Assembly: GCF_009184545.1 (NCBI RefSeq)
Contig: NZ_QJOW01000002.1
Coordinates: 62,001 to 126,000, forward strand
DNA from: Halosegnis rubeus
GTDB lineage: Archaea > Halobacteriota > Halobacteria > Halobacteriales > Haloarculaceae
Direction of reading: 5' to 3'
DNA length: 64,000 nucleotides
The number at the start of each line of letters is the position of its first letter. Position 1 is the stretch's first letter. The position numbers and the translations under genes were made by a program. The notes under the pieces were generated by a model that had not been told where the DNA came from, did not search any database, and saw nothing but the letters and a program-made list of their open reading frames with translations. This document shows, piece by piece, positions 25,172 to 63,785 of this stretch.

Positions 25172-26187
25172 TGGACCGCTCGCTCCCGGTCGACCGCGCG
25201 ACGGTCTGGAAAATCCTCGCCGGCTTCGCCGTCGCCGGCATCGTCCTCTACTTCGTCGCCTCGCAGTTCGGGCTCGGCGAGGTAGTCGACACGCTCGCCG
25301 GCGCGGACTTCCGGTGGCTCGCCGTTGGCTGTCTCTCCACGACGCTGTGTCTCGTCCTCTGGGGGAAGGCGTGGCACGTCGTCCTTCGGGTCGCCGGCAT
25401 CGACGTGTCATTCCGCAAGCTCGTGGGCACCTACTTCGCCGCCACGTTCGCCAACTATGTCACGCCACTCGGACAGGCGGGCGGCGAGCCGTTCATCGCC
25501 TACGTGCTCTCGCGCGACACCGAGGCCAGCTACGAGGAGTCGCTCGCGTCGGTCGTCACCGCTGACCTGCTGAATCTGCTCCCGTTTTTCTCCTTTTCGG
25601 CCATCGGCCTCTCGGTCCTGCTCGCGCAGTCGTCGCTCCCGGGTGCGGCCCAGTCGCTCGCGTGGGGGTTGCTCGCGATGGCTGTCGGCGTCCCCGTCCT
25701 CGTCGGACTGGCGTGGCGGTATCGCGAGACCGTTCGCGGCGGCGTGCTCCGGCTCGTCCGACCCGTCGCCCGAATCACGAGCCGCGTCTCAACCGACGGA
25801 GTGGCTCGCCGCATCGACGAGCTGTACGACTCTTTCGGCCGTATCGCGCAGGACCGCCGCGCGCTCGTCGTCGCCGTCGCTTTCGCGTACGCCGGGTGGG
25901 TGTTCTTCGCCCTGCCGCTGTACTTCGCCGGCAGGACGCTCGGCGTTCCGGGAATCGACCCGCTGCTCGTGTTGTTCGTCGTTCCGGCCTCGACGCTCGC
26001 CGGCCTGACGCCGTCGCCCGGTGGGACGGGTGGCGTCGAACTCGCGCTCGTCGCGCTGTTGGTCGCGCTCACGCCGGTGTCGAACGCCGTCGCGCTCTCG
26101 GTTGCGCTCGTGTATCGCGTGATGAGCTACTGGTTCGCGCTCGTGGTCGGGGGGCTGGCCGCGGTGGGTGTCGTGGCCCGTTCCTGA
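25171..26187 (+). CDS. UPF0104/LPG-synthase-like integral membrane protein
   Basis: The 338-residue protein has about eight hydrophobic segments. The conserved TYFAATFANYVTPLGQAGGEPFIAYVL region and the later LTPSPGGTGGVELALVALL segment are typical of the UPF0104 family. That family is related to the membrane domain of lysylphosphatidylglycerol synthase/flippase MprF. The GTG at 25171 shares a G with the preceding stop (TAGTG). Coupling to a phosphatase-fold enzyme suggests joint modification or flipping of a lipid-linked substrate, but this is inference. Confidence 0.85.
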   Translation: MDRSLPVDRATVWKILAGFAVAGIVLYFVASQFGLGEVVDTLAGADFRWLAVGCLSTTLCLVLWGKAWHVVLRVAGIDVSFRKLVGTYFAATFANYVTPLGQAGGEPFIAYVLSRDTEASYEESLASVVTADLLNLLPFFSFSAIGLSVLLAQSSLPGAAQSLAWGLLAMAVGVPVLVGLAWRYRETVRGGVLRLVRPVARITSRVSTDGVARRIDELYDSFGRIAQDRRALVVAVAFAYAGWVFFALPLYFAGRTLGVPGIDPLLVLFVVPASTLAGLTPSPGGTGGVELALVALLVALTPVSNAVALSVALVYRVMSYWFALVVGGLAAVGVVARS

Positions 26188-26845
26188 TTTCGATGTATCG
26201 TCTGGTGGATTTGGCTACATCGGTGGCAAGCCTGGTTTGAAACCTCCGAGCGTGTTGATTGCTGGCTACTCTGTCACGGACGCCTCGAAAGCCCCAGGCG
26301 TGTCGCGGTCGTTCCGTGACATATCGATCGCTCACTGCGTTCGCTCCCGATAGTGGTCACGGAGCCGACCATGCGAACGCGACACGCCCGTCTCTGCAAG
26401 ACGCTGCGCGTCTTGCTGACCCTGAAGTCTGCCATGGCAGACTTCAGGACCTCTTTCGGTCCGCCCGACAGCACCGCCCACACGCCTCCCCAGCCGATTC
26501 GCTCCCTCCGGTCGCTCATCCACTGTCAGAGCACGCGCTGACAAGCCGTCGCTCGGTGCCCTCGCGACGACCTCGCGCTGACTCGCGCGCCGATGCGCGC
26601 TCGGACCACGCCACCGCATCCGTCTCGCTCGATTGAGCAACCGTTGTGGTGGCCTGACGCACCGCGCGCCAGCGCGTGTGCGTCGTGGGGAAGGGTTGGG
26701 AGAGTGGCCGACGGCCACGGGCCAGCGAGCGGGAGCGAAGCGACACGCGAGCGGGCGGTCCGTCGCGCCCGCGTGGCGCGATGCGACCGCTAACAGTGCT
26801 GTTTCCCCGAGGCCAAGCAACGAGGACGGTCGCGGTGCTGGCAAC
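26188..26845. repeat. dispersed structured non-coding element, copy A
   Basis: No convincing gene lies between 26187 and 27030. The region is a diverged copy of 50210-50690. Matching blocks include 26205-26245 against 50246-50280, 26477-26577 against 50351-50451, and 26606-26830 against 50484-50662. Several hairpins in the 3' half are kept in both copies with changed stems, for example GCGCGC-cgat-GCGCGC here and GGCGCGC-acgag-GCGCGCC in copy B. Copy A has an extra segment of about 170 bases (26276-26448) made of three inverted repeats. Stretches that appear open in other frames are shadows of the repeat. Confidence 0.8.
26297..26448. repeat. three consecutive inverted repeats inside copy A
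   Basis: First, an imperfect stem-loop at 26297-26388: GGCGTGTCGCG pairs with CGCGACACGCC, CCGTGAC with GTCACGG, and TATCG with CGATA, in nested order. Second, GCAAGACG (26396-26403) pairs with CGTCTTGC (26409-26416). Third, a perfect 28-base palindrome without spacer at 26421-26448, whose left arm is CCTGAAGTCTGCCA. The segment is absent from copy B. Confidence 0.75.
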
Positions 26846-27029
26846 ATCAAATAGACATGCGTCAAACTCGTGTCAGCTTCAGTTGACGGCCCTGACGCTG
26901 AAGACACAACAACCGGCGCAAAGGTTCAAACCAGAAGCCGCGGCCACCGACCGTATGCTGTAACGAGTCGCCCGCGACGCCCGAGACGGGAGTCCGGCGC
27001 AGCGTCGCGCGTACCCAGCCGGCTGTTCG

Positions 27030-35269: not shown

Positions 35270-35612
35270 TGCGGCTGAGGGGAGTAAGCCCCCTTCTGTT
35301 CGGTCCGGCATTCGGCTGAGCACCCGTCGCGGTCTCCGGGCTACCAATGAACGACGGGCTTGCACCGGCGAGGATTCGCCGTTCCATCGCTCCCACTCCA
35401 TCGGCGTTTTGCGGGTTAGCTTCCTTCCCTCGCGGGTCGGGTCGCGCGCATCATCACTCCGGAGTGGACGTGTCGTTGCTGTTCCAGTGCCAGCGGTCTC
35501 CCGCTCTGGACGTGTGTCCAGTCGCCTGCCCGGTCGGTGGGGGGACTTTCCTCGCCACCGGGGTCCTACTCCCGGTAAGGCGGTGGCCGGACTCCCTCTG
35601 CCATCTGCCCAT
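35270..35612 (-). ncRNA. rnpB: RNase P RNA (archaeal type A)
   Basis: On the minus strand the universal motif GAGGAAAGTC is at 35553-35544 and ACAGAAgggggCTTA at 35299-35285, the hallmarks of conserved regions I and V of RNase P RNA. The intervening sequence is GC-rich and rich in complementary helices, with GGCAGATGGC near the 5' end as in other haloarchaea. The RNA is the catalytic subunit that matures tRNA 5' ends. The 5' end is estimated from a tttagg box at about 35627-35632 and the 3' end from the T-run at 35262-35268, so both are approximate. Confidence 0.9.
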
Positions 35613-38755: not shown

Positions 38756-39103
38756 TTACCGGGTTTCCCCTTTCGAACCCTCGCTATCCGTGGCTCGAAA
38801 CGTACGAATCCAAAGTAACGCTCCCGGGCAAACCGTACGGCGTGACCCTTCGCTCGGGCTGTGGTCTCTGTGGCGTCTCTGATCTTCTCTCTCGCTCGAA
38901 TTACACCTGTGAACGGTGTGATTTGGATTTGAAAGCTCGAGGGCTCGTGAACTTACAATATCGAACAAGCCGACTGTTTTCTTCCATCCTTGACCTCGGA
39001 TTGACGCGACGAAACTGAATTTGATATTGCGGTATGTGATTTATAAATTGACCATCGACGGATCCCTACGCGACACAGGGTCTGTCGAAAAACGGTGTGT
39101 CGG
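38756..39103. other. intergenic region between copA and rio2
   Basis: About 350 bases, AT-richer than its surroundings. A plus-strand frame covers 38731-39018 and encodes two CxxC pairs (CGLCG and CERC, 17 residues apart) that could be a zinc ribbon remnant. Its codons (TTA, CAA, CGA, ACA) are unlike local genes and no start fits, so I do not call a gene. One copy of the 29-base motif described below lies at 39016-39044. Confidence 0.4.
39016..39044 (+). repeat. 29-base dispersed motif, copy 1
   Basis: This copy begins tgaatttgatattgc and ends tgatttat. It matches 26 of 29 positions of the copy at 41899-41927 in the same orientation. It lies between the copA start and the rio2 end, so the gene it serves, if any, is unclear. 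Confidence 0.6.
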
Positions 39104-41898: not shown

Positions 41899-41927
41899 TG
41901 AATTTGATATTGCAGCATATGATTTAT
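41899..41927 (+). repeat. 29-base dispersed motif, copy 2
   Basis: Located between the divergent hydrolase and kynureninase genes, 45-75 bases from both starts. It reads tgaatttgatattgc…tgatttat and overlaps the AT-rich box tttatta (41922-41928) that probably serves as the kynU TATA element. A shared operator-promoter unit is plausible. Confidence 0.55.
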
Positions 41928-49409: not shown

Positions 49410-50209
49410 GCGCGGAGTGGCGACTGCTCCGCGAGCAGACCCTGCCGGGCGGGGAGGCGATGGCGTACGACGAGACCGCCGCCCGGACCGCCGCGGCGGG
49501 TGGTCCCCGGACCGTTCGGCTGTATCAGTGGCAACCCAGTACGCTCTCGCTCGGCTACCGACAGGCTCCCGAGAGCGTCGACTGGGACGCCTGCGAACGG
49601 GCCGGAATCGACGTGATTCGGCGCAACACCGGCGGCGGCGGCATCTACCACGACACCCACGGCGACATCTCCTACTCGATTATCGCCCCCGCCGACGAGG
49701 TTCCGGGCGACCTGATGGAGACGTACGAGCGGTTCTGTCAGCCCCTCTTTTCCGCCTTCGATGCGCTCGGTATCGACGCACACTTTGCCGACGAGGAGCA
49801 GCCGGCCATCCACGAGCCGGCCTGTTATCTCCGCGCGCTCCACCCGGCCCACGATATCGTCGCCGGCGACGGCCGGAAGCTGTCGGGCAACGCCCAGTAT
49901 CGCCGGAAGGACGCGGTCATCCAACACGGCTCGATCTCCTTCCGGAGTGACCCGGAGCGCCACCTGCGGTGTTTTGCCGAGGATGTGTCGCCCACCGAGT
50001 TCGAGGGCCGGGTGACGAGCATTGAGGAGCTTCGCCCGGAGCTGTCGCGGTCGGACGTGGTGGCGGCGCTGGAGGAGGCGCTCGCCGAGTGGGCCGGTGC
50101 CGAGACGGGGGAGTGGTCGGACGACGAGGTGGCGTTTGCCGAACGGCGCGCCCGGGAGAAGTACGGGTCCGAGGCGTGGACGCGACACCGCGACGACCCC
50201 ACGACCTAG
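49406..50209 (+). CDS. lplA: lipoate-protein ligase A-type enzyme
   Basis: The 267-residue protein of the biotin/lipoate ligase fold carries the RRNTGGGGIYHD motif near residues 72-83, LSYSIIAP-like ISYSIIAP next to it, and the catalytic-lysine segment GRKLSGNAQYRRKDAVIQHGS near residues 153-173. The family attaches lipoate or octanoate to E2 and GcvH proteins. Archaeal members are sometimes two-part enzymes; here no separate accessory gene is in view. Confidence 0.85.
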   Translation: MSAEWRLLREQTLPGGEAMAYDETAARTAAAGGPRTVRLYQWQPSTLSLGYRQAPESVDWDACERAGIDVIRRNTGGGGIYHDTHGDISYSIIAPADEVPGDLMETYERFCQPLFSAFDALGIDAHFADEEQPAIHEPACYLRALHPAHDIVAGDGRKLSGNAQYRRKDAVIQHGSISFRSDPERHLRCFAEDVSPTEFEGRVTSIEELRPELSRSDVVAALEEALAEWAGAETGEWSDDEVAFAERRAREKYGSEAWTRHRDDPTT

Positions 50210-50690
50210 GTTTTTGCTATCGTTTGAGTGTGTTTCTCGCTGATTTTGGCTACGTTGGTGAGCACGGCTTGAAATCCCCGGGCGTATCGTCTGGTGATTG
50301 CTCTGTTGTGAATAGCCGGAACGCCCCTTTCAGTCCACCCACGGCAACAGCCCACACGCCTCCCCAGCCGACTCGTTCGTTCCACTCACTCGTCCACTGT
50401 CAGAGCAAGCGCTGACAAACCGTCGCTCGGTGCCCTCGCGACGACCTCGCGACGACGGGCGCGCACGAGGCGCGCCGGCTCACGCCACCGCACTGCGTTG
50501 CTTGATCGGGCAACCGAGGCGGTGGCCTACCGCACCGCTCGCTGTGCGAGCGTGTGCGGTCCGGGGGAGGGTTGGCGCGGTCCGTCGCGCCCTCGTGGCG
50601 CGACTTGACCGCCAGCGGTCGCGGTATCGTTTCCCCGGTGCCAAGCAACGAGAGCGGTGTCGGTGTTGCTGAAGCTGAGTCCACCAGCAC
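50210..50690. repeat. dispersed structured non-coding element, copy B
   Basis: No gene is seen between 50209 and 50796. The sequence aligns with 26188-26845 but lacks that copy's inverted-repeat insert. Conserved hairpins include GGCGCGC-acgag-GCGCGCC near 50458-50477, CCACCGC…GCGGTGG around an inner GTTGC…GCAAC (about 50486-50526), and GCTCGC-tgt-GCGAGC within CGCACC…GTGTGCG (about 50530-50560). The 3' block ccccggtgccaagcaacga (50634-50652) recurs in altered form about 70 bases later. Open frames here are shadows. Confidence 0.8.
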
Positions 50691-50795
50691 AGTGCCCTCC
50701 CCGAAGCCAAACAACGACAACAAAGTCGAAACCGGACACACCACCAGAGCCGGCCAAATAAGACCACTTTTCATGTCCGACACCCGACCACGACC

Positions 50796-51659
50796 ATGAG
50801 CGCAGACGACATCCGAATCGGGGCACACACCTCAATCGCGAAGAGCGCGGGTCCGTACGACGGGCCGGCGAACGCCGTCCACCAGCAGGTCGACTACGGC
50901 GGCAACTGCGGGCAAATCTTCTCCCACTCGCCGCAGGTGTGGCAGTCGCCGGACGTCGACGACGAAGCCGCGACGCAGTTTCGCGACCTCGCGGAGGAAA
51001 ACGACGTGCGCCCGTGGGTCATCCACAGTTCCTATCTCGTCAACCTCTGTACGCCGAAAGACGACCTCCGCCGGAAATCACTGGAGTCGATGCAGGAGGA
51101 GGTCGACGTGGCCGACCGCCTCGGAATCCCGTACGTGAACGTCCACCTCGGGGCACACACCGGCGCGGGCGTAGAGGGTGGCCTGGCGAACGCCGGCTCC
51201 GTGCTCGATGACCTCGACGTGCCCGAGAGCGTGACGGTGCTCATCGAGTCCGACGCGGGGTCGGGCACCAAACTCGGCGGGCAGTTCGAGCATCTCGCGA
51301 CCGTCGCCGACGAGACGAGCGAGCCCATCGAGTTCTGTCTCGACACCGCCCACGTCTTCGCCGCGGGATACGACCTCTCGACCGCGGAAGGCGTCGAGGC
51401 GACGTTCGCCGAGTTCGACGACGTCGTCGGACTCGACCGGCTCTCGTACGTCCACCTCAACGACTCGAAACACGCCTGTGGCACCAACAAGGACGAACAC
51501 GCCCACATCGGCGAGGGCGAAATCGGCGTCGAGGGGATGCGCGCGTTCATCAACACCGCCGCCGACCTCGGCGTGCCGATGGCGCTCGAAACGCCGACGG
51601 AAGACGGGAAATCGTTCCCGTGGAACATCGAGCGAGTCCGCGAACTGCACCAGGCGTGA
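50796..51659 (+). CDS. nfo: endonuclease IV (AP endonuclease)
   Basis: The 287-residue TIM-barrel metalloenzyme cleaves DNA at abasic sites. It begins with [23 protein letters not shown], and has the zinc-site blocks [20 protein letters not shown] (near residue 110), [31 protein letters not shown] and [26 protein letters not shown]. All are characteristic of Nfo. A caaataag TATA-like element lies about 40 bases upstream. Confidence 0.94.
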
Positions 51660-54181: not shown

Positions 54182-54321
54182 CGAAACGACGCGGGAGCGA
54201 GCGCCGCAAGCGACACGCGGAGTAGTTCAGCCGAACGAAGTGAGGCTGAACAGAAACGACGCGGGAGCGAGCAGCGCGAGCGACACGCGGAGTAGTCCAA
54301 ACGAGCGAAGTGAGTTTGGAC
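54182..54321. repeat. two 70-bp tandem repeats with covarying hairpins
   Basis: Two units of exactly 70 bases (54182-54251, 54252-54321) follow the aminopeptidase stop. Each begins with gacgcgggagcgag… and contains agcgacacgcggagtag. Each ends in a perfect 8-bp hairpin with an 11-base loop: GTTCAGCC-gaacgaagtga-GGCTGAAC at 54225-54251 and GTCCAAAC-gagcgaagtga-GTTTGGAC at 54295-54321. The stems differ at several positions but both sides changed together, so the structure appears to be maintained. A third partial unit (cgggagcgacc) follows. Confidence 0.8.
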
Positions 54322-54343
54322 ACGAACGAGCGGGAGCGACCCC

Positions 54344-58935: not shown

Positions 58936-59009
58936 CCGCCCTTAGCTCAGACTGGTAGAGCAGTCGACTGTAGATCGACTTGTCCCCCGTTCAAATCGGG
59001 GAGGGCGGA
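58936..59009 (+). tRNA. tRNA-Tyr (GTA)
   Basis: The 74-base gene folds as a cloverleaf: acceptor CCGCCCT/AGGGCGG with discriminator A, a D-arm around AGCTC, anticodon stem GTCGA/TCGAC with loop ctGTAga, and T-arm CCCCG-ttcaaat-CGGGG. The first pair C1:G72 is typical of archaeal tRNA-Tyr. No intron is present and CCA is not encoded. Its 3' half is the attachment site of the downstream element. Confidence 0.95.
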
Positions 59010-59011
59010 CT
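58982..59011 (+). repeat. attachment site attL
   Basis: This 30-base sequence, gtcccccgttcaaatcgggg plus ten bases, covers the T-arm and 3' acceptor of tRNA-Tyr and is identical to 63515-63544. Confidence 0.9.
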
Positions 59012-62416: not shown

Positions 62417-62436
62417 CCTATGACAATCGGGCGGTC
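62417..62436 (-). repeat. element leader repeat, copy 3
   Basis: On the minus strand this is an exact copy of the 20 bases at 59362-59381. It overlaps the last bases of the integrase stop codon and heads the leader of the primase operon. Confidence 0.75.
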
Positions 62437-63433
62437 ACACCGAGTCGAGGTACTCTCTCCGTTGCTCCATCTTCTCCTCCTCGGTCATCTTGTTGTAGTG
62501 CCTGTCGAGAATGTCGGGCGAGACATCTGCCCTGTCAGAGACGACCTGCTTCGGCACGTCGTTCTTCAGGAGATGAGTTAGGCTCCCCTTCCGCAAGCAG
62601 TGGGGACTCCGTGATTGCTCGCACTTGCTGGCGTAGGAGTAGGGGTACTGTTCGGCACAACAGCAGGACTCCCCGTGGTAGCAGGGTCGGGTGATGTGGT
62701 ACACGAGGGCACGGATGTTGCTCTGGCTCACACGCCCTTGCTTAGTAGTAATGAGCGGCTCTCGTCCGTTGTCGTCAGTTACGTCGGGACGAGTGTGGGT
62801 TATCCAATCGCTCAGGACTTCACAGGTACGTTCTGGCAAGGCGATGGTTCGCTCTGCCCTCTTGCCATTCTTGAGAGACGTTCCTTCGTCGGGACGATGC
62901 CGTATTGCGAGTGCTTGCTCCTCCGAGCGGAAGTCTTCGAGATCGAGCGAGTGTAGGGTACCCATCCGTATCGAGGTCGCCCAGAACATCTCGAAGAGGA
63001 CGTGCTTTCGAGAGGCGTACTCGAACCGTTCGAGATACTCCCGAATCTTCCCTGCCCGCTCTCCGTCCAGCATCTCGTCCTTCACGTCTTCGTTGGCATC
63101 GAGGGTCGGAAGCAGAATCTCCTCGTGGGTGCCTGACTCGACAGCGTCGATGCTCTCACAGAATCGCACGAAGGCTCGGAGCGTCGAGAGTTGGGTCCGA
63201 AGCGACACAGGGTTGAGGTCGCCGTCGTCCTTCCGCCAGAGTCGGTAATCGTACAGCCTGCGACCGGTGAGGCCGTTGAGGTTGGTGAGGTTCTCCTGTC
63301 CACACCAGCGCACGAAGTGCTTGAGACGGTATCTGTGAGCCTGTACGGTTCTCTCAGAAGCGTCGTCTTCCCGTTGTGCGAGGTAGAGGTCTACCGCTTT
63401 CTGTGGTGCGATGGGTTCGAGGTTTTGGGTCAT
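62435..63433 (-). CDS. int: tyrosine-type integrase
   Basis: In the 332-residue site-specific recombinase an N-terminal SAM-like core-binding domain (residues 10-100) precedes the catalytic domain. The catalytic residues are Arg in ATSIRMGTLHSL (about 155), His-x-x-Arg in SPHCLRKGSL (about 280-283) and Tyr in LDRHYNKM (about 313). Between them is a cysteine cluster (CYHGESCCC…SKC, about 253-274) that may bind zinc, a feature of some haloarchaeal integrases. It is not split by the attachment site and should catalyse integration into tRNA-Tyr. Confidence 0.93.
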   Translation of the reverse strand: MTQNLEPIAPQKAVDLYLAQREDDASERTVQAHRYRLKHFVRWCGQENLTNLNGLTGRRLYDYRLWRKDDGDLNPVSLRTQLSTLRAFVRFCESIDAVESGTHEEILLPTLDANEDVKDEMLDGERAGKIREYLERFEYASRKHVLFEMFWATSIRMGTLHSLDLEDFRSEEQALAIRHRPDEGTSLKNGKRAERTIALPERTCEVLSDWITHTRPDVTDDNGREPLITTKQGRVSQSNIRALVYHITRPCYHGESCCCAEQYPYSYASKCEQSRSPHCLRKGSLTHLLKNDVPKQVVSDRADVSPDILDRHYNKMTEEEKMEQRREYLDSV

Positions 63434-63514: not shown

Positions 63515-63544
63515 GTCCCCCGTTCAAATCGGGGAGGGCGGACT
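63515..63544 (+). repeat. attachment site attR
   Basis: The sequence is identical to 58982-59011 and forms the right border of the element. Only the tRNA 3' half is present. Confidence 0.9.
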
Positions 63545-63785
63545 ACTTCTCACGCCGTATCAGGGCATCCGACAGTTCCCACGCTGTCGTGCGATTTCGG
63601 CGGTTGCTCGACCTCGGAAAATCGTGAGTGGAACGAGGAGACGAACGGTGTCCGTCGCCGTCGGGCGATTTCCGTAGCTGAAACTTGTCTCCCGTCTTCT
63701 TGACCGCCCCGTTGGTCGCCGACTCGTCTTGACTGCCGTCTGGTTTGACACACGTTTTAAATTGGGATGGGTTCCACAGTACAGT
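63545..63785. other. host sequence right of the element, no gene
   Basis: About 240 bases without a supported gene. The TATA-like gttttaaatt at 63754-63763 lies 23-32 bases before the GTG at 63786 and probably starts that gene's leaderless mRNA. Confidence 0.5.

Follow-up and report, generated by a model that had tools for sequence, protein, structure and literature searches.

Modular intergenic stem-loop repeats with optional modules and many copies are represented in bacteria by the BOX elements of pneumococcus and by the REP/BIME mosaics of enterobacteria, and the REPINs depend on a RAYT. REPINs, in which two inverted REPs are paired, form persistent populations of non-autonomous hairpin repeats (Bertels and Rainey 2011, PMC3116915), and the staphylococcal STAR elements are interspersed intergenic repeats that keep their locations within a species and vary in copy number with the lineage (PMC3532100). 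The haloarchaeon Haloquadratum walsbyi contains PATEs and SMRs, transposase-free repeats with palindromes and copy numbers in the tens to hundreds (Dyall-Smith et al. 2011, PMC3119063); these repeats show no target duplication, small repeats are nested in larger ones, and SwitchRepeats are found in opposite orientation at one site (PMC3119063). The window analysed here (the whole stretch of 64,000 nucleotides) contains two related intergenic sequences, A and B, which we consider, with a probability of roughly 0.7, to be copies of a non-coding, non-autonomous interspersed DNA repeat of Halobacteria with fast hairpin exchange.

Copy A takes up most of an 842-bp intergenic gap (26188-27029) between two convergent genes, the stop codons of which are located at 26187 and 27030. 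Copy B is housed in the gap 50210-50795, with a lipoate-protein-ligase-like gene (ending at 50209) on one side and an endonuclease-IV-like gene (starting at 50796) on the other. The two copies have in common a 141-bp ungapped block with 83% identity, a second block of 43 bp with 84% identity and further blocks, and the following features were assigned to them:

26209 to 26860, plus strand: copy A of the repeat (BLAST against the whole genome, alignment of the copies)
26392 to 26448, no strand assigned: twin-hairpin cassette of copy A, GCAAGACGCTGCGCGTCTTGC and CCTGAAGTCTGCCATGGCAGACTTCAGG, without counterpart in copy B
26483 to 26504, plus strand: box A (core motif) of copy A, CGCCTCCCCAGCCGATTCGCTC, with hardly any variation among 31 cores from many genera
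26522 to 26571, no strand assigned: hairpin pair of copy A, inserted between ...GCTCATCC and CTCGCG..., an insertion point also used in other genera
26656 to 26684, no strand assigned: outer stem GACGCAC / GTGCGTC of copy A, enclosing an inner hairpin
26796 to 26840, plus strand: 3' end unit of copy A, TTTCCCCGAGGCCAAGCAACGAG... (genome BLAST and alignment)
50240 to 50740, plus strand: copy B of the repeat (genome search and alignment of the copies)
50357 to 50378, plus strand: box A (core motif) of copy B, CGCCTCCCCAGCCGACTCGTTC
50529 to 50560, no strand assigned: outer stem ACCGCAC / GTGCGGT of copy B, enclosing an inner hairpin

A whole-genome search with each copy revealed about 24 copies in the 2.66-Mb genome, 17 of which have an intact core, defined as the core motif within a few mismatches. 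The preliminary description had presented A and B as a two-copy element; the long blocks common to both are present at the places it had given, whereas its count has to be raised to the number just stated. All three pairs of hairpins with differing stem bases that it had reported were recovered in A and B, namely GCGCGC (A, 26585-26602) versus GGCGCGC (B, 50457-50480), GCTC/GAGC versus GTTGC/GCAAC, and CGCGC/GCGCG versus GCTCGC/GCGAGC. We also agree that no protein frame is credible in both copies: the open length of every frame through the core differs greatly among 34 core copies from two species, with its minimum lying at 2-39 codons, and a protein-coding reading was rejected because there is no common frame. 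Apart from a single doubtful 40-bp match (c8_155), all copies are located outside predicted genes; they have a mixed orientation relative to the neighbouring genes, for which reason a role as a fixed 5' or 3' UTR, terminator or leader was discarded.

Elsewhere in the window, two tandem 70-bp units (54183-54322, 86% identical) each carry a perfect 8-bp hairpin with arms that differ between the units (GTTCAGCC/GGCTGAAC and GTCCAAAC/GTTTGGAC), a recurrence of the paired-change pattern of copies A and B in an intergenic repeat that is unrelated to them. A second copy of the 3' half of tRNA-Tyr (58936-59010) lies at 63515-63566 next to an integrase-like ORF (62435-63433), and the segment 58936-63566 is probably an integrated element of small size with att sites. 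The otherwise GC-rich window also has two AT-rich direct repeats of 29 bp (39016-39044 and 41899-41927, 90% identical).

Among 194 Halobacteria genomes at least 90% complete, box A (CGCCTCCCCARCCGAYTCGCTC, at most two mismatches) was present in 105, with 0-76 copies per genome, and 89 genomes were core-free; the reversed control pattern gave four matches in total over the genomes of this survey. These numbers, together with the copies found here, bear out the earlier surmise that this is a haloarchaeal repeat family with many copies. Among the named carriers are Halosimplex, Halolamina, Halorussus, Haloterrigena, Natronorubrum, Haladaptatus and Halococcus, and the distribution within a genus can be patchy (57, 76, 5 and 6 copies of box A in genus g54). 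In the g54 genome G111 (about 3.5 Mb), 73 of 73 copies are on a 2.90-Mb contig that makes up 83% of the genome, an arrangement expected by chance in about one case in a million. The core was found in none of the viral contigs or phage records, and plasmids gave weak partial matches on only five or six haloarchaeal records. A phage or virus origin was rejected on the first of these grounds and a plasmid origin on the second, the matches on six haloarchaeal plasmid records being weak and partial only. One bacterial record among the core matches was taken as chance.

Alignment of the copies showed that the element is modular, consisting of a conserved core, optional perfect hairpin cassettes between or beside the boxes, and degenerate tandem end units. 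The 5' part contains degenerate units with GAAAGCCCCGGGCGTGTCG, followed by optional hairpin modules including the twin-hairpin cassette, whose palindrome in copy A found its matches in other copies of the repeat (genome BLAST). Box A, which reads CCACACGCCTCCCCAGCCGATTCGCTC in this alignment, is followed by a pyrimidine-rich stretch, by box B (GCTCATCC-CTCGCACG), which can take up hairpins between its halves, and then by one hairpin and box C (CAGCGCGCGCCACCGCA). The boxes of the conserved core can also be written as CGCCTCCCCARCCGAYTCGCTC (A), GCTCATCC-CTCGCRCG (B) and CAGCGCGCGCCAC (C). The 3' domain in this genus comprises the stems GCCACCGC/GCGGTGGC and ACCGCAC/GTGCGGT and the string GGGGAGGGTTGG, and the element finishes with terminal units (TTTCCCCGAGGCCAAGCAACGAG), which in many copies are followed by degenerate repeats of themselves. 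The minimal element in other genera is made up of boxes A, B and C and one hairpin (about 110-140 bp), and the insertion point between ATCC and CTCGC takes different hairpins in different genera (e.g. L142, L144 and L165 versus the minimal forms). In G111, the element ends resemble inverted repeats (GCATCTCGATCGTTGGCCACTTGTGACCGCA ... reverse complement), a property of g54 copies that was not seen in the Halosegnis genus, and left and right end subtypes are often unlike within one copy. The twin-hairpin cassette of G111 (about 55 bp, GACGAGA...TCTCGTCTGCCAATCAGAAATC..GATTTCTGATGA) varies in its position within the repeat from copy to copy (L266, L267, L271, L275); it is like a mobile hairpin of its own and reminiscent of the small Haloquadratum repeats nested in palindromes (PMC3119063).

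The congener G004 has the element at 13 of the 17 core loci, in each case flanked by the same gene pair and with unchanged orientation; the flanks are mostly 90-98% identical at the protein level and 89-93% (about 90%) at the DNA level. Copy A has an orthologous copy there between the same genes, and at further loci the address is common to both species and part of the element has been lost in one. Elements at orthologous positions were 70-91% identical (mean 80%, or about 79% without two divergent subtypes), as compared with roughly 75% for the main type at non-orthologous positions, and the orthologue was the best match at only 5 of the 13 loci. Copies at orthologous loci resemble each other little more than unrelated copies do, such that orthologues look like paralogues. 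The outer stem, where paired change is clearest, shows compensatory arm changes within the genus: among 30 copies, 18 carry the allele ACC...GGT and 11 the allele GAC...GTC, one is broken, and the arms thus match in 29. Of 10 orthologous loci, 4 differ in the outer-stem allele and 9 in the inner hairpin. Inner hairpins such as CTCGCCGTGCGAGC, CGCCCGTGGCGC and CGCGCCAGCGC were found inside both outer alleles, showing that inner and outer parts reassort while the outer arms stay matched, and this matching in spite of reassortment indicates that pairing itself is maintained.

Comparison with more distant relatives revealed gain or loss of the element and its inversion. In G002, a more distant congener, identity in the flanks of copy A is 82-87%, the matched ends are 137 bp apart instead of 734 bp, and the element is absent from the orthologous gap. 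In G003, another more distant congener, the gap of copy B has a minimal copy in the opposite orientation, and a second gap common to the genomes also shows an inverted element. At two loci of g54, G111 and G086 have units of about 0.5-0.7 kb, as opposed to gaps of about 20-150 bp in G126 and G218, i.e. the whole unit, end units included, is present or absent at short intergenic gaps. No target-site duplication was visible at these two pairs of occupied and empty sites, where the ends are ragged tandem units, and precise element ends could not be read. Overall, intergenic gaps either contain or lack whole units measuring about 0.13-0.7 kb, the address of the units is kept between close species and their hairpins are rapidly exchanged.

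The finding of paired changes in two intergenic copies does not have to imply a structured RNA. The matched outer arms in 29 of 30 copies despite reassorting inner hairpins, the excess of hairpins and the conservation of the core across the order would all be compatible with a structured non-coding RNA family, or structured mRNA ends, with helices kept by selection, but we judge this explanation to be improbable. In the copies and loci examined, 94 perfect hairpins of at least 8 bp were counted, as opposed to 6-17 in three dinucleotide shuffles (about 8-fold), which places pairing well above chance; hairpins with one mismatch were not in excess over the shuffles. RNAalifold found no consensus pair (0 pairs) across 31 minimal cores from many genera, so the order-wide conservation is one of sequence and not of structure. 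Mismatches in 148 stems comprised 12 G.T and 12 A.C in a strict test (a version allowing long loops was noisy), so G.U is not in excess over A.C; since G.T is the RNA wobble and A.C its mirror image, selection on an RNA from one strand would make the two counts unequal. The following RNA of the same genome served as a control:

35273 to 35602, minus strand: archaeal RNase P RNA, control for G.U pairs

Its 68 pairs include 4 G.U and 0 A.C. A few G.U pairs are present in the 3' stems of this genus, and the wobble test therefore counts against RNA selection overall and is not proof. Rfam gave no match at gathering score and nothing convincing at relaxed E-values, orientation to the neighbouring genes is not fixed, and whole units are absent in congeners. 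The preliminary description had taken the paired changes to suggest selection on RNA or single-strand DNA structure; arm pairing is indeed kept beyond chance, whereas RNA selection finds no support, as there is no consensus helix in the core and no G.U signature, cassettes are replaced wholesale and whole elements are gained or lost. Pairing is strict here, yet the marks of RNA selection are missing, and the element does not behave like an RNA gene; a single-strand-DNA or cruciform structure is possible.

Maintained pairing together with the missing RNA marks would point to the DNA level, with arm-templated correction or an exchange of hairpins. Recombination between copies within these cells would exchange their contents, and complementarity of the arms could be restored in folded single-stranded DNA when one arm templates the correction of the other (quasi-palindrome correction); the DNA hairpin itself may also, or instead, be selected, keeping the arms complementary. 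As a tenable though tentative alternative, a resident transposase of the DDE or Y1 type may move the repeat, which would then be MITE-like, PATE-like or REPIN-like; this would be in line with the presence or absence of whole units, the bursts in copy number, the inverted-repeat-like ends of the g54 version and palindromes like those of Haloquadratum PATEs and SMRs (PMC3119063). Such mobilisation is harder to reconcile with the lack of a visible target-site duplication, with end subtypes that often differ between left and right within a copy, and with the 11 of 32 genomes with at least 10 core copies that had no Y1 transposase match (PF01797; explicit for two, G027 and G056, and for the other nine deduced from their absence from the list of positives). 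The genome studied here has two Y1 transposases. Across all genomes the Y1-free share (61 of 194) is much like that in the high-copy genomes, and a resident Y1 enzyme is therefore not required for maintenance. REPIN- or PATE-type mobilisation by a resident Y1 transposase was rejected, there being no association with copy number, and the comparison of Y1 presence with copy number in the 194 genomes identified no mobilising enzyme.

The near-invariance of box A across the order exceeds what would be expected of a purely neutral repeat. It would suit a chromosomal DNA site that is bound via box A by a putative protein (a nucleoid, segregation or recombination factor) and in which the hairpins act as spacers, as would the confinement of all 73 copies of G111 to the main contig, the absence of the core from viral contigs and phages, its occurrence on only five or six plasmid records and the exclusively intergenic location of the copies. 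We know of no protein that binds box A, and the lack of such a site in 89 of the 194 genomes, along with the range of 5-76 among close species, shows it to be dispensable, making this proposal unlikely. A further reading, namely an order-wide DNA element with inherited addresses, rewritten hairpins, DNA-templated arm correction and a near-invariant 22-bp core read by a putative protein, appears possible but doubtful.

As a non-coding interspersed DNA repeat, the reading that we prefer, the element works like a REP/BOX-type intergenic repeat: it has many intergenic copies, is too short for a transposase, lacks a common frame and is of modular build with stem-loops. Literature searches for haloarchaeal repeats and the core motif yielded no description, in a literature of mainly open-licence texts to which our claim of novelty is limited; the sole paper with a core string in the literature searched concerns a human microRNA, and no sequence match to PATEs or SMRs was present there. 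The earlier statement that no named element matches thus remains valid for Rfam and the literature searched. The family is apparently undescribed, yet it is carried by over half of the sampled haloarchaeal genomes, in up to 76 copies, and it offers a natural system for measuring the birth, exchange and correction of DNA hairpins in archaea. Compared with BOX and REP/BIME, the repeat is archaeal and longer, shows no RAYT-like dependence, has a conserved core that is non-palindromic and exchanges content between loci. It differs from REPINs in that a third of its high-copy genomes are without any Y1 transposase, and from STAR, whose loci keep locus-specific sequences, in that its orthologous loci have swapped content. 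With PATEs and SMRs it has in common the lack of a transposase and of a visible target duplication, the palindromes, the nesting and the inversion at one site; unlike them, it combines an order-wide invariant core and rapid hairpin exchange at fixed addresses with no link to the presence of Y1.
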